30,806 nt of DNA. It comes from a virus. Shown one piece after another: positions 7,931 through 27,497 of this stretch (position 1 is its first letter; each line of letters opens with the position of its first letter). The stretch is from IMG/VR virus record IMGVR_UViG_3300030451_002151, positions 1 through 30,806 of that record; one strand, written 5' to 3'. The notes under the pieces are model-generated. The model saw nothing but the letters and a program-made list of their open reading frames with translations, searched no databases and was not told the origin of the DNA. The translations under genes and the position numbers were made by a program.

Positions 7931-8398
7931 ATGCTTAAAAATCTTATTAGCACAATAGCTCCAGCGTTAGGATCGGCACTTGGCTCACCCTTAGGTGGAG
8001 CAGCAGTAAGCATGATAGCTGAGAAGCTAGGCGTACCCAACAATCAAAAAGCAGTAGAGAAAGCCATACAACAAGCCACACCAGAACAATTATTAGAACT
8101 TAAAAAGGTTGAGAAAGACTTTGAAGTTAAGATGAAAGAGCTTGAAGTCGATGTTTTTAAACTAGAAACTCAAGACGTACAGAATGCTAGAAAGACTTTT
8201 GCTTCTGATTGGACATCTAAGTTCATGGGTCTATTGGTAATCTGTGGCTTCTTAGGTTATATATTTTTAGTGACCTTACAACCGCCAGAGCAGAACTCAG
8301 AGGCTCTTATTAACCTTGTACTCGGATATTTAGGTGGTTTGGCTAGTGCAATCATATCTTTCTACTTTGGCGCTTCACACACGAAAGACAAAGACTAA
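7931..8398 (+). CDS. Holin-like membrane protein (3TM/GTA-type)
   Basis: A 155-residue protein with an N-terminal glycine/alanine-rich amphipathic segment (APALGSALGSPLGGAAVSM), the phrase ATPEQLLELKKVEKDFEVKM, a helical middle, and two clear membrane segments at about 97-115 (FMGLLVICGFLGYIFLVTL) and 124-147. It ends in a short charged tail (SHTKDKD). This architecture matches the three-segment holins of gene transfer agents and many marine phages, which open the inner membrane for the endolysin. It is oddly placed inside the head-tail connector block, 17 kb from the endolysin at 25187. A structural role cannot be excluded. TAATG couples it to the next gene. Confidence 0.7.
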   Translation: MLKNLISTIAPALGSALGSPLGGAAVSMIAEKLGVPNNQKAVEKAIQQATPEQLLELKKVEKDFEVKMKELEVDVFKLETQDVQNARKTFASDWTSKFMGLLVICGFLGYIFLVTLQPPEQNSEALINLVLGYLGGLASAIISFYFGASHTKDKD

Positions 8399-19103: not shown

Positions 19104-19167
19104 AAGGGCTGGTACAACCTTTTATTCATATTGATTTCCTAAATATATTCTCGAGACCAGCCCTTTT
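19102..19167 (+). terminator. Long-loop inverted repeat, probable terminator
   Basis: AAAAGGGCTGGT at 19102-19113 is an exact inverted repeat of ACCAGCCCTTTT at 19156-19167, a 12-bp stem with GC-rich centre and a T-run on its 3' side. The loop is 42 bases, unusually long for a simple terminator, and AT-rich. The stem overlaps the stop of the preceding gene and ends 6 bases before the ATG at 19174. It separates the virion genes from the accessory operon. A structured leader RNA or attenuator for that operon is the alternative. Confidence 0.65.
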
Positions 19168-19173
19168 CTTGTT

Positions 19174-19524
19174 ATGGAAGATCTAGTTTTAGTTATACAA
19201 CAGTTAGGGTTTCCGATAGCTGCTGCTGTCGGTCTAGGTTTTTTTATTTACAAGCTTATCATGCGGATAGTAGATGGCATGGAAAGCAAGTTGGATGTGG
19301 TAGATGAAAAGGTGGCAGAGCAAATTAGTGCTATGGAGCAAAGGTTGGGTACTAAGCTAGATTCCCAACATGGTATCTTGGTAGCTCTGATTGACAGAAT
19401 CAGAAGTCTTGACAACGAGATTATAAGACAGGACACTTTAATTAAGACTATCTTAGGTGTGCCACAACTGATAGAGCCAAACAAGATAGCCAAGGCAGAT
19501 AGAGATGACCAAAGAAAAGATTGA
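19174..19524 (+). CDS. Membrane-anchored coiled-coil protein (holin-like?)
   Basis: A 116-residue protein with one membrane segment at about 9-31 (QLGFPIAAAVGLGFFIYKLI), followed by a long charged helix (VVDEKVAEQISAMEQRL ... LIDRIRSLDNEIIRQDTLIK) that should be a coiled coil facing the cytoplasm or periplasm. Small phage proteins of this plan are often annotated as holin-like or YvrJ-like, without proof. It is the first gene of the curli-type operon and overlaps the CsgF-like start by 20 nt. No Shine-Dalgarno is evident, because its start follows the hairpin directly, so translation may depend on that RNA structure. Confidence 0.6.
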   Translation: MEDLVLVIQQLGFPIAAAVGLGFFIYKLIMRIVDGMESKLDVVDEKVAEQISAMEQRLGTKLDSQHGILVALIDRIRSLDNEIIRQDTLIKTILGVPQLIEPNKIAKADRDDQRKD

Positions 19525-19999
19525 CGATTATTACACAAGCAAACATAAGCGAATGGGCTGTGCGATATTTTTAATCCCTTTATTAGCACTGCCCCTCTTC
19601 GCTGATGAAATCAAGTTTCAATTCAAGTCTCCGTCATTTAGTGGCATAGGCACGTCAGCACATTATCTCACAATAGAGAATCAAGAGTTTACCAGAAGCG
19701 AAACTATCAGACTTGAGCTGGAAGCCAAGCTAGAAGAACAACTTAGAGAAAAAAACAACACCTTATTAGAAAGATGGAAAAACAATCTGCAATCCAGAAT
19801 ACTATCTAACATCTCCAGACAGATTACAGATTCTTTGTTTTCTGACGATCCGCAACTAACAGGTTCATTCGTGTTGTTCGACAATGTGATAAGTTGGGAT
19901 AGCGATGGACAATTTATTACTCTAAGCATATATAATACTCTTGATGGCACGACTACTGAAATTACTATTCCTATCAACTCTTTCGGTTTTACTGATTAG
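19505..19999 (+). CDS. csgF: CsgF-like curli assembly factor
   Basis: A 164-residue secreted protein; an alternative ATG at 19553 gives 148. A Sec signal peptide spans 17-33 (MGCAIFLIPLLALPLFA) with cleavage before DEIKF. The mature N-terminus FQFKSPSFSG matches the invariant CsgF start (FQF.nP.FgG), the part known to enter the CsgG channel. A helix 'LQSRILSNISRQITDSLF' and a C-terminal strand pair (DNVISWDSDGQFITLSIYNT, TTEITIP) also follow CsgF. In bacteria CsgF sits outside the pore and couples fibre nucleation to secretion. An extra charged helix (ETIRLELEAKLEEQLREKNN) replaces the usual linker. It is adjacent to csgG, as in bacterial operons. Confidence 0.85.
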   Translation: MTKEKIDDYYTSKHKRMGCAIFLIPLLALPLFADEIKFQFKSPSFSGIGTSAHYLTIENQEFTRSETIRLELEAKLEEQLREKNNTLLERWKNNLQSRILSNISRQITDSLFSDDPQLTGSFVLFDNVISWDSDGQFITLSIYNTLDGTTTEITIPINSFGFTD

Positions 20000-20789
20000 T
20001 TGCGCTACTCATAGAGAATACATCTCACCCTGTTTAACCAACCCAGACAACGACTACAAAGATGTGGTCACTATTGTAGGCAAAGCCGAGTGTTTTTCTA
20101 AATCTGCTTTCGTCAACGAACCGATCACTGATGCCATCACTAAAGTAGGGATAGCTAATGTGCAACCAGTAGTAGCTGTGTACAAGTTTCAAGATCTGAC
20201 AGGACAGCGTAAATCCATTGATGGGTATGCTAGTTTTTCGACAGCTATGACCCAAGCGCCAGAAACTTACTTAATTCGTGCCTTGAAACAATCCAAATTC
20301 TTCAGGGTAGTAGAACGTGTTGGTATCGACCACATCACTAGAGAACGTCAAATAATCAGATCTACTAGACAGAAGTTTGATGATGATACTGAAGAGTTGC
20401 CTCTACTCTTCGCAGGTATTTTGTTTGAAGGTGGCATCATAGACTACAACACCAATCTATTGTCAGGTGGTATTGGGGCTAGATATCTAGGCATAGGCAA
20501 CAGCAAACAATACCGAGAAGATACTGTCATTGTCGCTATGCGAATTGTCTCAGTCAGCACAGGTGAAGTTTTGCTAGAAAACTTAACGACTAAGACTATT
20601 TTATCGGTTGGTTTGTCAAACGACTTTTTTAGATATATAGCTGATGGCACTAAGCTAGTAGAGTTTGAGACAGGCAACGCTATGAATGAGAGCAAGTCTA
20701 TCGCTTTGCAAAGTGCTATTGAAATCGGTATAGTTAATATTATTGAACAGGGCATTGAACGAGGCTACTGGTCGGTGAAAAGCTTATGA
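19944..20789 (+). CDS. csgG: CsgG-like outer-membrane curli secretion channel
   Basis: A 281-residue lipoprotein. The signal peptide ends in the lipobox LISC with C20 as lipidation site, as in CsgG. The core follows E. coli CsgG closely: VVAVYKFQDLTGQRK, FSTAMTQAPETYLIRALKQS, FFRVVERVGIDHITRERQII, SGGIGARYLGIGNSKQYRED, IVSVSTGEVLLENLTTKTIL and the end AIEIGIVNIIEQGIERGYW. CsgG forms a nonameric beta-barrel pore that exports unfolded curlin. In the constriction loop a Phe (F98) is kept but the neighbouring Asn appears replaced. There is an N-terminal insertion with two extra cysteines (C30, C50). The gene begins 56 nt inside csgF. ATG 19944 is preferred over the adjacent TTG 19941. Confidence 0.9.
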   Translation: MARLLKLLFLSTLSVLLISCATHREYISPCLTNPDNDYKDVVTIVGKAECFSKSAFVNEPITDAITKVGIANVQPVVAVYKFQDLTGQRKSIDGYASFSTAMTQAPETYLIRALKQSKFFRVVERVGIDHITRERQIIRSTRQKFDDDTEELPLLFAGILFEGGIIDYNTNLLSGGIGARYLGIGNSKQYREDTVIVAMRIVSVSTGEVLLENLTTKTILSVGLSNDFFRYIADGTKLVEFETGNAMNESKSIALQSAIEIGIVNIIEQGIERGYWSVKSL

Positions 20790-21505
20790 GATTTTTAATT
20801 ATATTTTTCATTTCATTTGGTGTATATGCAGATAATGAGATCTTTGTCTCACAGACAGGGGCTAATGCTGCAATTAAGTTGGAACAGCTAGGTAGTTCTA
20901 ACCTCATGGGTGGTACACAAGCAACGTCTGGTAGCCTCACTGCTTTAGGTTTGAGTGGTAGTGATATGACACTTACCATCAATCAGATTGGCTCAAGCAA
21001 TATCTTTAGAGCGGATGACTTCAATGGTGATAACGTCACAGCTTATTGGAACTTTGCAGGAGATAGTAATGTCTTTGATGTCGTTATGAATAGCTTAGAA
21101 GCTAACTCTAGTGATTACGTCAATGTCAATGTCCAAACTACAGGCAGTAGCAACACCTTTGATCTAGCCATTGCTGAAGATAGTAATGCCAGTTATCTGG
21201 ATTTAGACTGGATTATAGATGGTGATAATAATGAATTTGAGTTTGATATCGACTATGAATATGCTACTAATTATGTGGACGTTTTAGGAGACAGCAACGA
21301 ATTAACATTTTCTGGTAGTGGTTATGCTGGTACTTCTGCCACAAATTCTGGCTACTTTTACCTAGACTTAGATGGTTCAAGTAATACGTTCAACATTACT
21401 CAAGCTTCGACACTAGCAAGAGATTACCTTAAGATAACTGCTAATGGCTCGAATAGCACTTTTTGTATTGTTCAAAATGATGGTGGTACATCCACTTCAT
21501 GCTGA
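20786..21505 (+). CDS. Secreted curlin-like repeat protein
   Basis: A 239-residue protein with a signal peptide (residues 1-15, MRFLIIFFISFGVYA) and a mature chain of repeats. Turns of form G-[SD]-[SN]-N occur at residues 36, 69, 92, 120, 146, 168 and 197, 22-33 apart; looser ones start at 25 and 221. Each is preceded by alternating beta residues and usually followed by x-F-x. The second and third units keep the true curlin core Q-x-G-x-x-N (LEQLGSSN, INQIGSSN). Curlin subunits are exported by CsgG and stack into amyloid. The product is acidic, Ser/Asn/Asp-rich and has a C-terminal pair of cysteines (C227, C239). The start overlaps the csgG stop as ATGA, with GGTGA upstream. Assignment combines motif, signal and neighbours. 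Confidence 0.75.
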   Translation: MRFLIIFFISFGVYADNEIFVSQTGANAAIKLEQLGSSNLMGGTQATSGSLTALGLSGSDMTLTINQIGSSNIFRADDFNGDNVTAYWNFAGDSNVFDVVMNSLEANSSDYVNVNVQTTGSSNTFDLAIAEDSNASYLDLDWIIDGDNNEFEFDIDYEYATNYVDVLGDSNELTFSGSGYAGTSATNSGYFYLDLDGSSNTFNITQASTLARDYLKITANGSNSTFCIVQNDGGTSTSC

Positions 21506-22523
21506 CACAATAGGCGATATTTCAGAACTCAAAGGCTTTGGACAGATAGTTCGAGACCAACCTTATCCAGCAGTCTTAGATTTTGCTATAGAATCCTACG
21601 ACAACGTCCAAACTAGAGCAGGTCGTGTCGCTATTACCTTCTTAGACAACACACAAGTCCGTCTAACAGAACATTCTAATTTAGTCATAGACGAGTATAT
21701 CTACAACCAAAACAATAGCTCTATGAGCCTTAAATTCGCTTCTGGCACTATCAGATTTATCAGTGGGGCGTTGGATAAGCAAAAGGTCAAACTAACAACT
21801 GACAGCGCTGAGATCGCCATATTAGGCACAGACTTTACTGTGACAACCACAGAGTTTGGTTCTAGTCTAATAATCTTGTTGCCTGATCAGTTTGGTAATG
21901 CCAGTGGCGAGATCATAGTCTCAACAGGGGCAGGGCAAGTTACCCTAAATCAACCCTATCAGGCTACTACTACCAGTGTCTTTGAATCAGCACCCACCAA
22001 GCCAGTAACCTTAGATATTACGCTTGACTTCATAGACAATATGCTCATTATCAACCCACCTAAGGAAGTCGTTGTGCAAGAAGAAGAAAGTCGTCAGCAG
22101 ACCACAGATTATTTGGATTACAACGAGTTAGATGTCGATTTGTTAGCCGAAGATTTTCTTAAGCTCGATGAAGATTTTGAGTTCACAGAGTTAGATATAG
22201 ATTATCTTGATGTCAACTTCTTAGAAGATTTGTTAGATGTCTTAGATGCACTTGATACAGGCGAGGAACAAGATCAATTAGCCATCAACCTAGAATCAGC
22301 TAACATCAGTGGTACAAGTATAGGACAAGATACGGAAACCCAAATCACAACCTTTATACAGGGTGAACGCTTAAGTATGCAGAGAGTAGTCAATCAACAA
22401 GCTTATTTAGATTTAGATAGCAGTGGTGCATACACAGTTATCTTTATCCAAGATGGGGTCAGTAAGACTGTCAAGATCAATGGTGGGTCATCATCTAGTA
22501 TTACCATTACCCAGAACCCATGA
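21444..22523 (+). CDS. FecR-domain secreted protein with acidic repeat region
   Basis: A 359-residue exported protein. The signal peptide is residues 1-20 (MARIALFVLFKMMVVHPLHA). Residues 22 to about 150 are a FecR-type periplasmic domain: TRAGRVAITFLDNTQVRLTE, SSMSLKFASGTIRFISGALD, then VKLTTDSAEIAILGTDFTV. About 213-275 is extremely acidic with recurring LD-[VI]-D and YLD units. The C-terminus is a small beta domain (YLDLDSSGAYTVIFIQDG) ending SSSITITQNP. FecR domains relay envelope signals and in bacteria are often found beside CHASE2 cyclases. It begins 62 nt inside the curlin-like gene, with no strong ribosome site, so coupling is likely. Whether it is a sensor, a surface protein or a second CsgG client is open. 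Confidence 0.78.
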   Translation: MARIALFVLFKMMVVHPLHADTIGDISELKGFGQIVRDQPYPAVLDFAIESYDNVQTRAGRVAITFLDNTQVRLTEHSNLVIDEYIYNQNNSSMSLKFASGTIRFISGALDKQKVKLTTDSAEIAILGTDFTVTTTEFGSSLIILLPDQFGNASGEIIVSTGAGQVTLNQPYQATTTSVFESAPTKPVTLDITLDFIDNMLIINPPKEVVVQEEESRQQTTDYLDYNELDVDLLAEDFLKLDEDFEFTELDIDYLDVNFLEDLLDVLDALDTGEEQDQLAINLESANISGTSIGQDTETQITTFIQGERLSMQRVVNQQAYLDLDSSGAYTVIFIQDGVSKTVKINGGSSSSITITQNP

Positions 22524-23059
22524 TTGAATTACCGAACAAAAAATACAACACAATAGTTCTTGACCCACCTTGGGACATAACCATGTCTGGCAAAAACATT
22601 AGAAGAAAAAAACAAGCCACTAAGTTAGATTATCCGACTATGACACTTGATCAAATCAAGGCATTACCAATATCAGATGTAGCTAATTTAGGATGTCATG
22701 TATATACATGGACAACAAATAAAATGTTGCCTTATACATTTGATGTTTTAAAAACTTGGGGTGTGAATTATCATTTAACTCTTGTCTGGACAAAACACAA
22801 TGGAATGACACCTAACTTCGCTTACAAGTTTGCCACAGAATTTTGTTTACTTGGTTTTTATAAAAAACCAATGCAAAAATTCAAAAAATGCGGAAAGCTT
22901 AATTGGATAAACACAAATGCACCTAGAAAACATTCTACAAAACCACAAGAATTTTTTGATTTAGTAGAAGAAATGTCACCAAGTAATTATTTAGAAATGT
23001 TTGCAAGGAACAAAAGAACAGGCTGGGATGTCTGGGGTAATGAAGTAGATTGTGATTAG
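22520..23059 (+). CDS. MT-A70 family DNA N6-adenine methyltransferase
   Basis: A 179-residue methylase. The catalytic motif DPPW is at residues 15-18 (NTIVLDPPWD), followed by YPTMTLDQIKALPISDVANL, VYTWTTNKMLPYTFDVLKTW, and the S-adenosylmethionine-side motif near the end (SPSNYLEMFARNKRTGWDVW). Length and motif order are those of short phage MT-A70 enzymes, which methylate adenine in DNA and probably shield it from host restriction. It starts with an ATGA overlap and ends in an 8-nt overlap, so it is embedded in the operon. By eye it is more AT-rich than its neighbours, with A-runs (e.g. 22850-22900), suggesting separate acquisition between FecR and cyclase. Confidence 0.9.
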   Translation: MIELPNKKYNTIVLDPPWDITMSGKNIRRKKQATKLDYPTMTLDQIKALPISDVANLGCHVYTWTTNKMLPYTFDVLKTWGVNYHLTLVWTKHNGMTPNFAYKFATEFCLLGFYKKPMQKFKKCGKLNWINTNAPRKHSTKPQEFFDLVEEMSPSNYLEMFARNKRTGWDVWGNEVDCD

Positions 23060-24791
23060 AATAGGTTTGGCACTCATAACTTTGTTAGCTATACCACTAG
23101 CACTACAAGTCACACCTCTGGAGATTTTGAAGCTCAAAGTCTTTGATACTTTTGTGGAGAAACATAAACCAAGTGAATACTTTACCATCTTAAATATAAC
23201 TGACAGTGATGTTAGAGCAGAGGGTGGTTATCCCTTTCCTAGACAAAGATTGGCAGAAATCAACGATGAAATCATGGCAAAAGGCGCTCTGGGTGTCGGT
23301 TTCGTTATATCATTCATAGACAAAGATCGGTTTGGTGGTGACAGCTTGTTCCTCAATTCCATACAACAGCATAGTACAGTTGTTGCCACCTTCGAGACTG
23401 ACAATGGCTTGTATCCTAAACCTACAGGTACAGTCTTATTAGGCGAAGAAGCGACAGGCATACAGCTACAAGGCTATATGCCAAACATACCTATGATAGC
23501 TAACGTGGCACTTGAGGGTATGGTTTCAGCCCCAGTTGATGCCGATAATCTAGTCAGACGATTACCTTTGCTACTGCAAACACCTGATGGCTGGATTCCT
23601 AGTTTTGGTACTCAGGTACTTAAAAGTCTAGTCGGTGCTGATACCTTCATTATCAAAACAAATACCGCAGGTATAGAAGAAATCAGGGTCAGAGGCTTAC
23701 CACAAACCAAGGTGGATAGTTTAGGGCGACAGTGGATTAGTTGGGTTGACACACCCCAAACCACATTGCAAGAGATGGCTGTCAAAGATAAGTTTGTGTT
23801 TGTCGGTGTGACAGCAAAAGGGGTCATGCCCCAACTAGCTACAAGTGTTGGTTTGTTAGAACCCCATAAGATACAAGCAGCACTAGCTGAATCTATGCTA
23901 ATACCAAACAGCCCTTACATACCTTATTGGCATTTAGTGGCTGAATTGTCTGCTTTGCTCATTTTGTGTCTCCTTATTTGGCTTGTAAGCTCTTTTCTTG
24001 GACTTACTTGGTCTATTACCCTTGGTTCTGTAATCTTTTGCTCTACAGCTTTATATGGCTACTACACCATTAGAGCAGGTCTTTTGCTGGATTTAAGCTA
24101 CACTTTGATAGCAGAATTCGTGACAGCAAGTGTCGCTTACTATCTTAACTTTCGTAAACAATATAAATTACGTCAACAAATCAAGAAACAGTTCGAGCAT
24201 TACCTTGACCCACAACAAGTCAAACGTCTGCAAGACAATCCTAGTTTACTAAAGCTCGGTGGCGAGAAGCGTTACTGCACATTCTTATTTACAGATGTCA
24301 GAGGCTTCACTGTCCTGTCAGAAACCAAGCCACCAGAAGAAGTCACAGCCATTATGAACAAAGCATTAACCATACAAGCCAAGGCTGTGCAAGAGCATGG
24401 TGGTATGGTTGATAAATATATAGGTGATGCGATGATGGCTATCTTTAATGCGCCCATAGATCTAGACAAGCATGAAGAGGCAGCTATCAAAGCTGCTCTA
24501 CAAATAAAACACGAAATGCAAGAAGCACAGTTAGGTATTGATATTGGTATAGGGATAAATGCAGGAGAAGCTGTGTTAGGTAATATGGGGTCTGATTCAC
24601 GATTCGACTATACTGCCATAGGTGATGCCGTAAATACAGCAGCACGATTAGAAAGTGCTACTAAAGAAGTTGGAGTAGATTTATTAATTGGTGAAAGTAC
24701 CGCACAAGCAGTTGATTATGAGTTACAATCATTGAAGCCGATCAAAGTGAAAGGCAAAGCAAAACCGCTTAAAATATATACTTATGGTTGA
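23052..24791 (+). CDS. CHASE2-domain class III adenylate cyclase
   Basis: A 579-residue membrane sensor enzyme making cAMP from ATP. It has one N-terminal membrane segment (about 4-20), a periplasmic CHASE2 sensor domain (about 25-290; DTFVEKHKPSEYFTILNITD, SFGTQVLKSLVG, KFVFVGVTAKGVMP), three membrane segments (about 294-318, 320-341, 346-368), a helical linker and a cyclase domain (about 395-579). Catalytic residues are intact: metal aspartates D415 (FTDVRGFT) and D459 (KYIGDAMM), K455 and T521 for adenine choice, and N528/R532 in GDAVNTAARLE. The GTG start at 23052 gives an 8-nt overlap with the methylase, a junction repeated elsewhere in this genome. Substrate choice as ATP rather than GTP is inferred from the K/T pair. 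Confidence 0.9.
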   Translation: MIRIGLALITLLAIPLALQVTPLEILKLKVFDTFVEKHKPSEYFTILNITDSDVRAEGGYPFPRQRLAEINDEIMAKGALGVGFVISFIDKDRFGGDSLFLNSIQQHSTVVATFETDNGLYPKPTGTVLLGEEATGIQLQGYMPNIPMIANVALEGMVSAPVDADNLVRRLPLLLQTPDGWIPSFGTQVLKSLVGADTFIIKTNTAGIEEIRVRGLPQTKVDSLGRQWISWVDTPQTTLQEMAVKDKFVFVGVTAKGVMPQLATSVGLLEPHKIQAALAESMLIPNSPYIPYWHLVAELSALLILCLLIWLVSSFLGLTWSITLGSVIFCSTALYGYYTIRAGLLLDLSYTLIAEFVTASVAYYLNFRKQYKLRQQIKKQFEHYLDPQQVKRLQDNPSLLKLGGEKRYCTFLFTDVRGFTVLSETKPPEEVTAIMNKALTIQAKAVQEHGGMVDKYIGDAMMAIFNAPIDLDKHEEAAIKAALQIKHEMQEAQLGIDIGIGINAGEAVLGNMGSDSRFDYTAIGDAVNTAARLESATKEVGVDLLIGESTAQAVDYELQSLKPIKVKGKAKPLKIYTYG

Positions 24792-25149
24792 AGCATTTAT
24801 ATATAACTGCAAATTAGATCGAGTAGTCGATGGTGATACTATTGACGTACATATTGATTTAGGCTTTGGGGTCTGGCTCTACAAACAAAGAGTACGACTG
24901 CATGGCATAGACACACCAGAATCCAGAACCAGAAACAAGGCAGAAAAAGCTTTAGGTTTGTTAGCTAAATCCAGACTTGGTGAGTTGTGCGGTGAAGAGT
25001 TGCTGGTCAAGAGTTTAGGTAAAGGCAAGTATGGCAGAATCTTAGGCATACCTTACACCAAAGACGGAGAAGATATCTGCCAAAAATTAATAGAAGAAGG
25101 TCACGCTGTCGAATACTTTGGTGGCACAAAAAAGAAAGTCTGGGGTTAA
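24784..25149 (+). CDS. Thermonuclease-like nuclease (SNase family)
   Basis: A 121-residue nuclease with the staphylococcal nuclease active site in place: D16-G-D18, R38, D43, E46 (spacing R+5 = D, R+8 = E) and R85 in KYGRILG. It lacks a signal peptide, so it should act in the cytoplasm, possibly degrading host DNA or processing nucleic acid during replication. It starts in an 8-nt overlap with the cyclase and so belongs to the same transcript. Slightly short of the usual 135-150 residues; the C-terminal helix after EEGHAVEYFGG is cut down. Confidence 0.9.
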   Translation: MVEAFIYNCKLDRVVDGDTIDVHIDLGFGVWLYKQRVRLHGIDTPESRTRNKAEKALGLLAKSRLGELCGEELLVKSLGKGKYGRILGIPYTKDGEDICQKLIEEGHAVEYFGGTKKKVWG

Positions 25150-25186
25150 GATCAAGATAAAAATAAAACCGAGATATGGGGGTAAG

Positions 25187-25630
25187 ATGAAAATATCAGA
25201 AGAGGGCAAAGCCCTGATTAAAAAGTTTGAAGGTTGTGAGTTAGAAGCTTATCAATGTCCAGCAGGGGTCTGGACAATAGGTTATGGACACACTAAGGGC
25301 GTACAGCAGGGTGATGTTTGGTCACAAGCTAACGCTGACGAAATGTTAGATATAGAATTAGAAGAGTATGAGGGTTACATCAATGAGCTGGTTGATGTGC
25401 AGTTAGAACAGCATCAATTTGATGCTTTGGTGGCTTGGGTCTATAACTTGGGTGCAGGTAACTTAATTAGCTCAACCTTGTTGATAAAACTTAATGCAGG
25501 TGAATACGCTGACGTACCGCATGAAATCCAACGCTGGAACAAAGCAGGTGGCGAAGTGCTAGAGGGTTTAGTCAGACGTAGAAAAGCTGAGGCTTTGCTG
25601 TTTGAGGGCAAAGACTGGTCAGAGGTCTAG
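25187..25630 (+). CDS. Endolysin, GH24 lysozyme (E-x8-C-x5-T type)
   Basis: A 147-residue muramidase that cuts peptidoglycan at lysis. Catalytic triad positions are E15, C24 and T30 in KFEGCELEAYQCPAGVWTIG, the E-x8-C-x5-T form common in P21/P22-related endolysins; then YGHTKG and AWVYNLGAGNL. There is no signal-anchor sequence, so it should need a holin to cross the inner membrane. Start 25187 is chosen for the GGGGGT stretch 4 bases upstream and the conserved N-terminus; an upstream ATG at 25118 would add a Lys-rich non-family extension. Its stop overlaps the stop of the opposite-strand methylase (CTAG, 25627-25630). Confidence 0.93.
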   Translation: MKISEEGKALIKKFEGCELEAYQCPAGVWTIGYGHTKGVQQGDVWSQANADEMLDIELEEYEGYINELVDVQLEQHQFDALVAWVYNLGAGNLISSTLLIKLNAGEYADVPHEIQRWNKAGGEVLEGLVRRRKAEALLFEGKDWSEV

Positions 25631-26037
25631 CCAAAAATCACCAACATAGAATCGTGCATACCTGATTGATTATCAACAAACTCGCCTTTGGTGTTGACAC
25701 CCTGGAATCTAATCCTTCTTCGTATAAATCTAATCTCTGTGGCGTTTGGTTGTATGAAGTCATGGAATAAAGCTGTTGAGGTTGACACTGGTAAGAGGCA
25801 GACAGACAGTTTGCCTTTTTTGGCTTCAAGTATAGCTTTTTTGACAAAGGCTTCTTTGAGGTGTTGGGTGTAAGGAGGGTTGACAAAGTTTCTTGACCCC
25901 CATTCAATCGTCAAACCATCAAAGTCAGCGTGTAGAGGACAAGGATCGAAATCAAACTCAAACTCTTTGTCTAATTCAGCGTAGAAGTCTTTAGGTGTAG
26001 CCCAATGGTCGCTGTGGTCTAAGTTACGACCCTTCAT
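25627..26037 (-). CDS. Phage Dam-type DNA N6-adenine methyltransferase
   Basis: A 136-residue enzyme of the phage Dam family. Features are HSDHWATPKDFYAELDKEFE at the start, DPCPLHADFDGL, and the catalytic NPPY at residues 53-56 (NFVNPPYTQ), with a conserved ending SGMHDSMLVIFG. It would methylate adenine in phage DNA, probably against host restriction. It is the last gene of the leftward operon, converging on the endolysin with overlapping stop codons and no room for a terminator between them. It starts 14 nt inside the nuclease gene. With the MT-A70 gene it gives the phage two unrelated adenine methylases. Confidence 0.9.
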   Translation of the reverse strand: MKGRNLDHSDHWATPKDFYAELDKEFEFDFDPCPLHADFDGLTIEWGSRNFVNPPYTQHLKEAFVKKAILEAKKGKLSVCLLPVSTSTALFHDFIQPNATEIRFIRRRIRFQGVNTKGEFVDNQSGMHDSMLVIFG

Positions 26038-26545
26038 AGTCGAAACCGAATGATAACTGCGGATTTGATTTTTTGCTTGTATTTATATCTTCAGTAGAAA
26101 AAATTTTAAGATTTTTTTGCCATGACCATTTAGCTTGTATGATAAATTGGCTTCTCGATAATGTTATACGTTCCTGTGCTATGTCACTATGCACAAGAAG
26201 GGCAGCGTATTCTGGCTCATCTATCAAATCGTTTGCGACCAATACAAAATATTCTATTTCAGCAGTATCGTAAAACTGCTTACTTACTACATTTTTATCA
26301 TTTGCTCTTATGCTAAGGGAACACCTTCGTAAATCGAAAACGTAAGCTTTATTTCCACTTCGGTCTTTTGTCCTGTAGCTTGAACTTTTAACTTGGACAC
26401 CATAATACTGGCTCAACAAAGGGTGTCTAATTAAGAAATCTACGGCGTGGCTTTCTGGTGCTTCAAATATTTCGAATCCCTTTGCCCCAAAAAGCGCTTT
26501 GGCGTAATTTTCACAGGCGTGAGCTAATTGATAATTGCTACTCAC
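26024..26545 (-). CDS. PD-(D/E)XK-like nuclease
   Basis: A 173-residue protein from the GTG at 26545, which overlaps the exonuclease stop by 8 nt (GTGAGTAG); an ATG at 26593 would add 16 residues. Core motifs fit the PD-(D/E)XK fold with a Gln variant: a helix LAHACENYAKALFGAKGFEI, then an Asp in SHAVDFLI and YYGVQVKSSSYR (D...Q-x-K). Related intron-associated and restriction-type endonucleases use this D-QxK pattern. It lies between YqaJ exonuclease and Dam, so it may resolve or cut recombination intermediates or act on unmethylated DNA. The family is inferred from the motif; the substrate is unknown. Confidence 0.65.
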   Translation of the reverse strand: MSSNYQLAHACENYAKALFGAKGFEIFEAPESHAVDFLIRHPLLSQYYGVQVKSSSYRTKDRSGNKAYVFDLRRCSLSIRANDKNVVSKQFYDTAEIEYFVLVANDLIDEPEYAALLVHSDIAQERITLSRSQFIIQAKWSWQKNLKIFSTEDINTSKKSNPQLSFGFDYEGS

Positions 26546-27497
26546 TATCTTTCTTTTTGATAGTAGCTGTCTTACGTCTAACAGTGTAGCCATCTTTAGC
26601 AGGTACGACTTTCTCAGGTTGGGGTTTGTAAGTCGTTGTACCCCAAGTGACTTTGTATTTGTAGTTATGACCGATTTCAGCATCGCCCATCTTGCTTTGT
26701 ATGTAGATTTGTGATTTCTCTACTTCTTCATTCAGCAGCTTAATCTTTTCTTTATTATCCATAATTCTATCTAAATGGAAGCCACATTCATCGTCACTTA
26801 GATCTACTTCTTCTTGTTTACTAACAGGGTGCATAATCTGAAGATCAGGCAAGACTTGGGGTGCATACCAGTCTTGTTCTTTGATACGTCTTTCAAAGTC
26901 AGTTATGATGTCTTTGAGTTCTTTTTCAAAGGCGAAGTCTCTGCGCAACAGGAACATCTTAAAATCGTTGGTATTATGCAGGGTTGACACAAGCCCCCAC
27001 GAATACCCACATATTGCGCAGAGCGCCTTCGTTTGTAGTACACCACGCCATAAAGGTGGTTTGCCATCTGGTTCTGGTAGTTGTCTGGTTGTTTTGATTT
27101 CGATAATGCCTTTACCATCGAGCAAAATGTCTTGGTCATCTTCAGTATATATAAGTTCATTGTCTGGTTTGATGATGAGATTTTTAGCGTAAGCAGTACC
27201 ATCAATAGAACCTTCGAGGGGAAAATCTAAGTGCTGTACCGCTTGGTTAATGCTAACTTCTACGTTAGTCAAACCTAACTTCTCAGCAGAAAGCTCTATC
27301 AATGGTTTCTCTAATATGTTGCCAATCTCTATCGGCATATTGTTTTTGTCTGATCTGACATCGACACCTGATCTGGCATCTATCCTAGACTTCAAGTATT
27401 CATTCTTGGTTTCGTAGGGTGACACACCAAACAGCACTGGTATGCCTGAACAGGAAGCGTGTTTGTCGCTGGATAACTTACCGAGTGCTTTGTCCAT
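26538..27497 (-). CDS. YqaJ/lambda-type recombination exonuclease
   Basis: A 319-residue 5'-3' exonuclease for single-strand annealing recombination. The active site is visible: E57 (EIGNILEKPLIE), D99 (EGSIDG) and E133-I-K135 (GIIEIKTTR), the D...E-x-K of the YqaJ/lambda exo fold. SCSGIPVLFGVSPYETKNEY near the start is the usual YqaJ lead-in, and the C-terminal 100 residues are helical and charged (FERRIKEQ, KEKIKLLNEEVEKS). It starts 20 nt inside the small regulator gene and is followed by an 8-nt overlap. A separate annealing protein is not recognisable; the SSB-like protein at 28154 could serve. Confidence 0.9.
   Translation of the reverse strand: MDKALGKLSSDKHASCSGIPVLFGVSPYETKNEYLKSRIDARSGVDVRSDKNNMPIEIGNILEKPLIELSAEKLGLTNVEVSINQAVQHLDFPLEGSIDGTAYAKNLIIKPDNELIYTEDDQDILLDGKGIIEIKTTRQLPEPDGKPPLWRGVLQTKALCAICGYSWGLVSTLHNTNDFKMFLLRRDFAFEKELKDIITDFERRIKEQDWYAPQVLPDLQIMHPVSKQEEVDLSDDECGFHLDRIMDNKEKIKLLNEEVEKSQIYIQSKMGDAEIGHNYKYKVTWGTTTYKPQPEKVVPAKDGYTVRRKTATIKKKDSE

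Follow-up and report, generated by a model that had tools for sequence, protein, structure and literature searches.

What would a phage gain from carrying genes of type VIII secretion, the curli system, and do these genes form a system that could work in an infected cell? The question has been raised by the virus record IMGVR_UViG_3300030451_002151, whose whole length of 30,806 nt (30.8 kb) has been studied here and is referred to as the window. A preliminary description made from the letters alone had placed CsgF, CsgG and a repeat protein in a row, overlapped head to tail, and both the coordinates and the content of these genes have proved right. The three-gene set is real, but it extends both ways into a nine-gene chain on the plus strand (19174-25630) with an overlap at every joint; the FecR-domain protein, the adenylate cyclase and the upstream membrane protein, all counterparts of published module parts, had been overlooked. 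In its order, the chain consists of the following genes:

19174..19524 (+), small protein of 116 aa before CsgF, in which a single hydrophobic segment near the N-terminus is combined with a coiled coil (hydropathy; phrog_18771)
19505..19999 (+), CsgF homologue, 164 aa (PF10614 E=1.1e-14; phrog_35372 2.6e-25), with the FQF..P.F.G motif common to E. coli CsgF
19944..20789 (+), CsgG homologue, predicted outer-membrane lipoprotein export pore (PF03783 E=3.3e-46; phrog_20175; lipobox LISC)
20786..21505 (+), curlin-like substrate, 239 aa, with signal peptide, repeats and C-terminal Cys227/Cys239
21444..22523 (+), FecR-domain protein, predicted secreted, with signal peptide (PF04773 E=3.1e-11, residues 54-137 only; phrog_37870 3e-61)
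22520..23059 (+), MT-A70 adenine methyltransferase (PF05063 E=1.5e-27)
23052..24791 (+), CHASE2-adenylate cyclase (PF05226 2.5e-29; PF00211 6.3e-20)
24784..25149 (+), staphylococcal-nuclease-like (SNase) protein (PF00565 7.2e-13)
25118..25630 (+), phage lysozyme (endolysin), last of the chain (PF00959 6.9e-50; phrog_7)

The overlaps amount to 56 nt between CsgF and CsgG, 4 nt between CsgG and the substrate and 62 nt between the substrate and FecR, and the methyltransferase gene shares 4 and 8 nt with its FecR and cyclase neighbours. The window further encodes a GpA-type large terminase, a portal, a fused protease-capsid, a major tail protein, a tape measure and a J-like tail protein, and this set of terminase, portal and tail genes therefore points to a siphovirus-like build. 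The head and tail genes have been found collinear with those of Roseobacter phage CRP-821, a CRP-822-type isolate (PMC12629253), with identities in tblastn of 47% for TerL, 49% for the portal and 57% for the major tail protein, by which measure the window phage is related to the CRP-822-type family. The curli module is present in the window and absent from CRP-821, and curli are unmentioned in the paper on that family (PMC12629253). A scan for sigma-70 promoters and terminators has given no signal clearly above that of shuffled sequence. Just ahead of the module, at 19107-19165, stands an inverted repeat, AAAGGGCTGGT...ACCAGCCCTTTT, which is terminator-like or boundary-hairpin-like, and right past the lysozyme lie a Dam-type methyltransferase and a RecE/YqaJ-like recombinase (25627-26037 and 26538-27497, both on the minus strand). 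The product of 7931-8398 (155 aa, two membrane segments), possibly a holin, is encoded in the head-tail region here, but among 118 loci of relatives, 48 have its counterpart immediately 5' of the curli genes.

For the export apparatus, the Pfam profiles have placed the products of 19505 and 19944 in the CsgF and CsgG families to which the preliminary description had assigned them. The CsgF profile PF10614 is matched by residues 22-156 at 55.2 bits (cut-off 25.8), and the mature protein starts with DEIKFQFKSPSFSG. In an alignment with E. coli CsgF the residues F40, P43, F45 and G47 are invariant, and F38, F40 and F45 correspond to Phe24, Phe26 and Phe31 of the E. coli protein, which are in contact with the lumen of CsgG in the structure of the complex; the eyelet asparagine (E. 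coli CsgF Asn36) is not kept. From this alignment, CsgF would be the extracellular coupler, and its mature N-terminus should line the CsgG channel. A phmmer search of the PDB with CsgF missed the CsgF structures and returned an unrelated kinase chain (E 6e-4), which has been set aside. CsgG covers positions 9-209 of the 210 in PF03783 at 157.7 bits (cut-off 20.8) and matches the solved E. coli CsgG (3x2r/6l7a) over residues 75-279 (phmmer 2.2e-42, 148 bits). Counted from the ATG at 19944 its lipobox, LLISC, ends in Cys20; a TTG at 19941 is an alternative possible start. The constriction loop contains one extra residue, and in the alignment to the E. coli precursor one of the three residues of the ring is kept: Phe71 equals F98, with Asn70 opposite Ser97 and Tyr66 opposite Ile92. 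Compared with the E. coli csgBAC-csgDEFG genes, the pore and coupler are thus homologous with the pore-plugging residues conserved, whereas CsgC, CsgD and CsgE are lacking in the window and the substrate, a degenerate one, exceeds CsgA and CsgB in length and aligns with them only weakly. Neither CsgE nor CsgC was found by Pfam scans spanning most, not every, ORF of the 30.8-kb record. The preliminary description had taken this lack to mean a reduced or host-borrowing system, a reading that is unneeded, as alphaproteobacterial curli operons also occur without csgC, csgD and csgE (PMC3521004). Under the name Salmonella phage S.Kent 1-2-1, a record of 1.5 kb (OR851715.1) encodes a CsgG 37% identical to that of the window; a piece of a host csgG may have been deposited there under a phage name.

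The identity of the substrate requires a more graded answer. The signal peptide and Q-x-G-x-x-N repeats described for it do exist, and the motifs exceed those of shuffled mature sequence (P about 0.003 each for Q-x-G-x-x-N and G-x-x-N), but just two of the seven G-x-x-N units are strict, the other five being without the Q. A stricter count of G-[SDTNG]-[SDNG]-N has been matched by none of 20,000 shuffles, and the positions invariant over 34 diverse relatives are Q, G and N. Against the curlin profile PF07012 the window protein itself scores an insignificant E=2.1, under the cut-off, and nothing matches it at the usual Pfam threshold, so that the curlin assignment holds at the level of the family: 15 of 18 family members match PF07012, mostly weakly, the Melnitz relatives stand above the cut-off (one with 26.1 bits vs 20.7), and hhalign gives a probability of 98.7% for the match of the family profile to the second of the curlins annotated in Melnitz. 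Direct hhalign comparison to E. coli CsgB (13.7%) and CsgA (4.0%) is too weak to serve as stand-alone evidence, and the substrate profile found nothing significant among PDB sequences. By its profile relationships the substrate is accordingly placed, at family level, among curlins that occur in other phages too. The AlphaFold2 model (pLDDT 84.3, pTM 0.80) is a beta-solenoid, but the fold is unspecific, being common to many non-fibrous proteins (PMC10192328). The CsgA fibril 8enq is matched by the model with Z 11.8 (rmsd 8.9) and is outranked by non-fibrous beta-helices with Z up to 17.9, and Foldseek has given zero matches at E under 1e-3. The modelled solenoid is what would be expected for a curlin, yet it leaves amyloid unproven.

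Whether these genes belong together has been addressed with 168 related loci from two viral-contig scans and one genome-contig scan, some of them the same contig fetched twice, so that the counts are not independent. CsgF precedes CsgG in 153 of the 156 loci long enough to tell, and a small membrane protein stands in front of CsgF in 143 of 146 with enough upstream sequence. Of 153 loci, about 148 have the substrate gene directly after CsgG: the script counted 142, and in six of the eleven that it scored as lacking the gene (L004-L007, L015, L119) it is present, overlapping or abutting CsgG. FecR follows in 134 of 137 loci and the cyclase in 80 of 89, and an SNase-like gene is often close by. 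What lies between FecR and cyclase varies: HTVC008M and Melnitz have another curlin-like gene there, the window and only one relative (L006) have MT-A70, and elsewhere other small proteins fill the place. All cassette genes are under purifying selection, as the Nei-Gojobori dN/dS, calculated for the window against those relatives whose dS is usable, lies at about 0.02-0.18 over the cassette and at 0.06-0.13 for the substrate; close relatives give about 0.02-0.13, and the values up to 0.18 come from distant ones with dS near saturation. Both the linkage and the selection support the earlier proposal that pore, coupler and substrate carried together make a working system. Because the genome-contig scan gave mostly phage-like contigs binned into MAGs, the cellular origin of the module is taken from the literature.

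The pore could also serve other ends. As proposed for Melnitz (PMC9004378), CsgG and CsgF might have been repurposed as a pinholin-like or secretin-like pore that times lysis, with the other genes as passengers, and the overlapping chain does lead straight to a lysozyme; of 89 loci long enough to show it, 40 have a lysozyme downstream. That proposal was based on the absence of csgA and csgB, but in Melnitz two genes bear the annotation of curlin associated repeat proteins. The inner membrane is where holins act, whereas CsgG sits in the outer one. The substrate gene, which is under purifying selection, is kept at almost every related CsgG locus, and its near-constant presence beside the pore therefore argues against a bare pore, so we regard a role in lysis as improbable. 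The small upstream protein has been considered as a holin as well, with weak YvrJ matches only (best E 0.09), and no such claim is made. Still less can be said for a pore that takes up larger molecules such as iron complexes or vitamins, with FecR as an iron-linked regulator, as suggested in PMC7029224 and PMC9599517. A FecR domain is indeed present, but the protein that bears it is a secreted one, with a signal peptide ahead of the domain, and its layout in the family alignment is completed by a conserved acidic Leu-Asp stretch and a beta-rich C-terminus; neither the Pfam scan nor the alignment has revealed an anti-sigma domain or other cytoplasmic anti-sigma part, and the iron-regulator role is therefore without sequence support. 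(The structure model of this protein, with pLDDT 48.8, was too poor for use.) As uptake would also leave coupler and substrate unexplained, we judge it highly improbable.

A closer competitor accepts export of the curlin-like protein through the pore and differs in the product: instead of an amyloid fibre there would be a single capped beta-solenoid, acting as a surface adhesin or as a mask, with its growth end shut by a disulphide at the C-terminus. It is retained mainly because Cys227 and Cys239 could cap the solenoid: 61 of 63 close relatives have both, as do 29 of 34 diverse ones, and no cysteine occurs in E. coli CsgA or CsgB. The Q that stabilises curlin stacking is gone from five of the seven repeats, and non-fibrous beta-helices are the best structural matches. 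Set against this, the T4-like phages HTVC008M and Melnitz keep the same module with substrates that are without the cysteine pair, and degenerate curlins bearing insertions are known (PMC10192328), so the capped, non-amyloid product seems rather unlikely to us. We hold it fairly probable that the locus is a type VIII secretion module carried by a marine phage of siphovirus-like build, its substrate being exported to form a fibre on the infected cell; more generally, the gene content suggests that the module most likely displays a curli-like fibre or an adhesin there.

The implied novelty of a phage curli system has not stood, as the same module was published in 2020-2022 and is annotated in GenBank for HTVC008M and Melnitz. 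CsgF and CsgG have been described in pelagimyophages (PMC7029224), csgF and csgG in Melnitz, where the absence of clumping among infected cells counts against a fibre (PMC9004378), and the fuller module of CsgF, CsgG, CsgA/B, FecR and adenylate cyclase in podo- and myoviruses, with environmental transcripts (PMC9599517). HTVC023P-type podoviruses and pelagimyophages (PMC9599517; PMC7029224) have the same order as the window, from the upstream gene through CsgF, CsgG, CsgA/B-like and FecR to the cyclase, and CsgC, CsgD and CsgE are missing in either. The window differs from this pelagiphage module by its siphovirus-like backbone, its single curlin gene and the MT-A70 in the FecR-cyclase slot. 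The pelagiphage gene before CsgF is labelled histidine kinase, whereas its window counterpart is without a kinase domain, and no kinase family has been found by Pfam in this small protein and 11 relatives, HTVC008M and Melnitz included. The published label may denote the same kind of small protein; the kinase and FecR labels have been compared with the window by their published descriptions. In GenBank, the Methylophilales phage Melnitz and the Pelagibacter phage HTVC008M carry the module in the same order, with CsgG 39-42% and the substrate 30-31% identical to the window, but on a T4-like backbone and with two repeat proteins. The published cases belong to Podoviridae and Myoviridae, and no siphovirus carrier has been found in the literature, in a search that left subscription journals and preprints mostly outside. 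The gene set is thus already known from other ocean phages, and the window adds a different build and a closer view of the substrate.

This third build also bears on how the module is distributed. Contigs with a CsgG 74-81% identical to that of the window carry another portal family (phrog_1216), with no GpA-type terminase seen, and further CsgG-bearing relatives have phrog_2-type (T4-like) terminases. Typing of the relatives' backbones by the podovirus connector PF12236 and the sheath PF04984 has given no match over the cut-off. In a quick CsgG tree the siphovirus-like rows fall among the phrog_1216 rows, and a single phrog_1216 clade is rejected (p-AU 0.0002). As the tree mixes phage backbones, the module has therefore passed from one type of phage to another, which agrees with earlier reports of such transfer. 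A bolder reading, which we offer as no better than tentative, would make the module a self-contained mobile virus unit passed between unrelated phage families, siphoviruses included, and equipped with a cAMP switch of its own that senses the periplasm and with an exported beta-solenoid that is specific to viruses and, in most lineages, capped by cysteines; infected cells would thereby acquire a surface structure other than ordinary amyloid curli.

For the preferred reading, a fibre-forming secretion module, we infer a sequence of export, fibre formation, cyclase signalling and benefit to the phage. In an infected cell, four proteins (CsgF, CsgG, the curlin-like protein and the FecR-domain protein) would reach the periplasm by way of the host Sec system. 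The pore in the outer membrane would be built from CsgG, with CsgF inserted as a plug on its outer side. Through this pore the curlin-like protein would travel unfolded, to fold outside as a beta-solenoid, and such solenoids may stack into a short surface fibre, which could aid sticking to other hosts or shielding from rival phages. All three class III motifs of the cyclase (FTDVRGF, KYIGDAMMAIF and GDAVNTAAR) are intact, and the enzyme might raise cAMP upon a periplasmic signal sensed by CHASE2. The substrate is now testable, with its cysteines defined, and a siphovirus-like backbone joins the known carriers. If the module works, phages of the commonest ocean bacteria would re-dress the surface of the infected cell, and both clumping and infection by rival phages could change.
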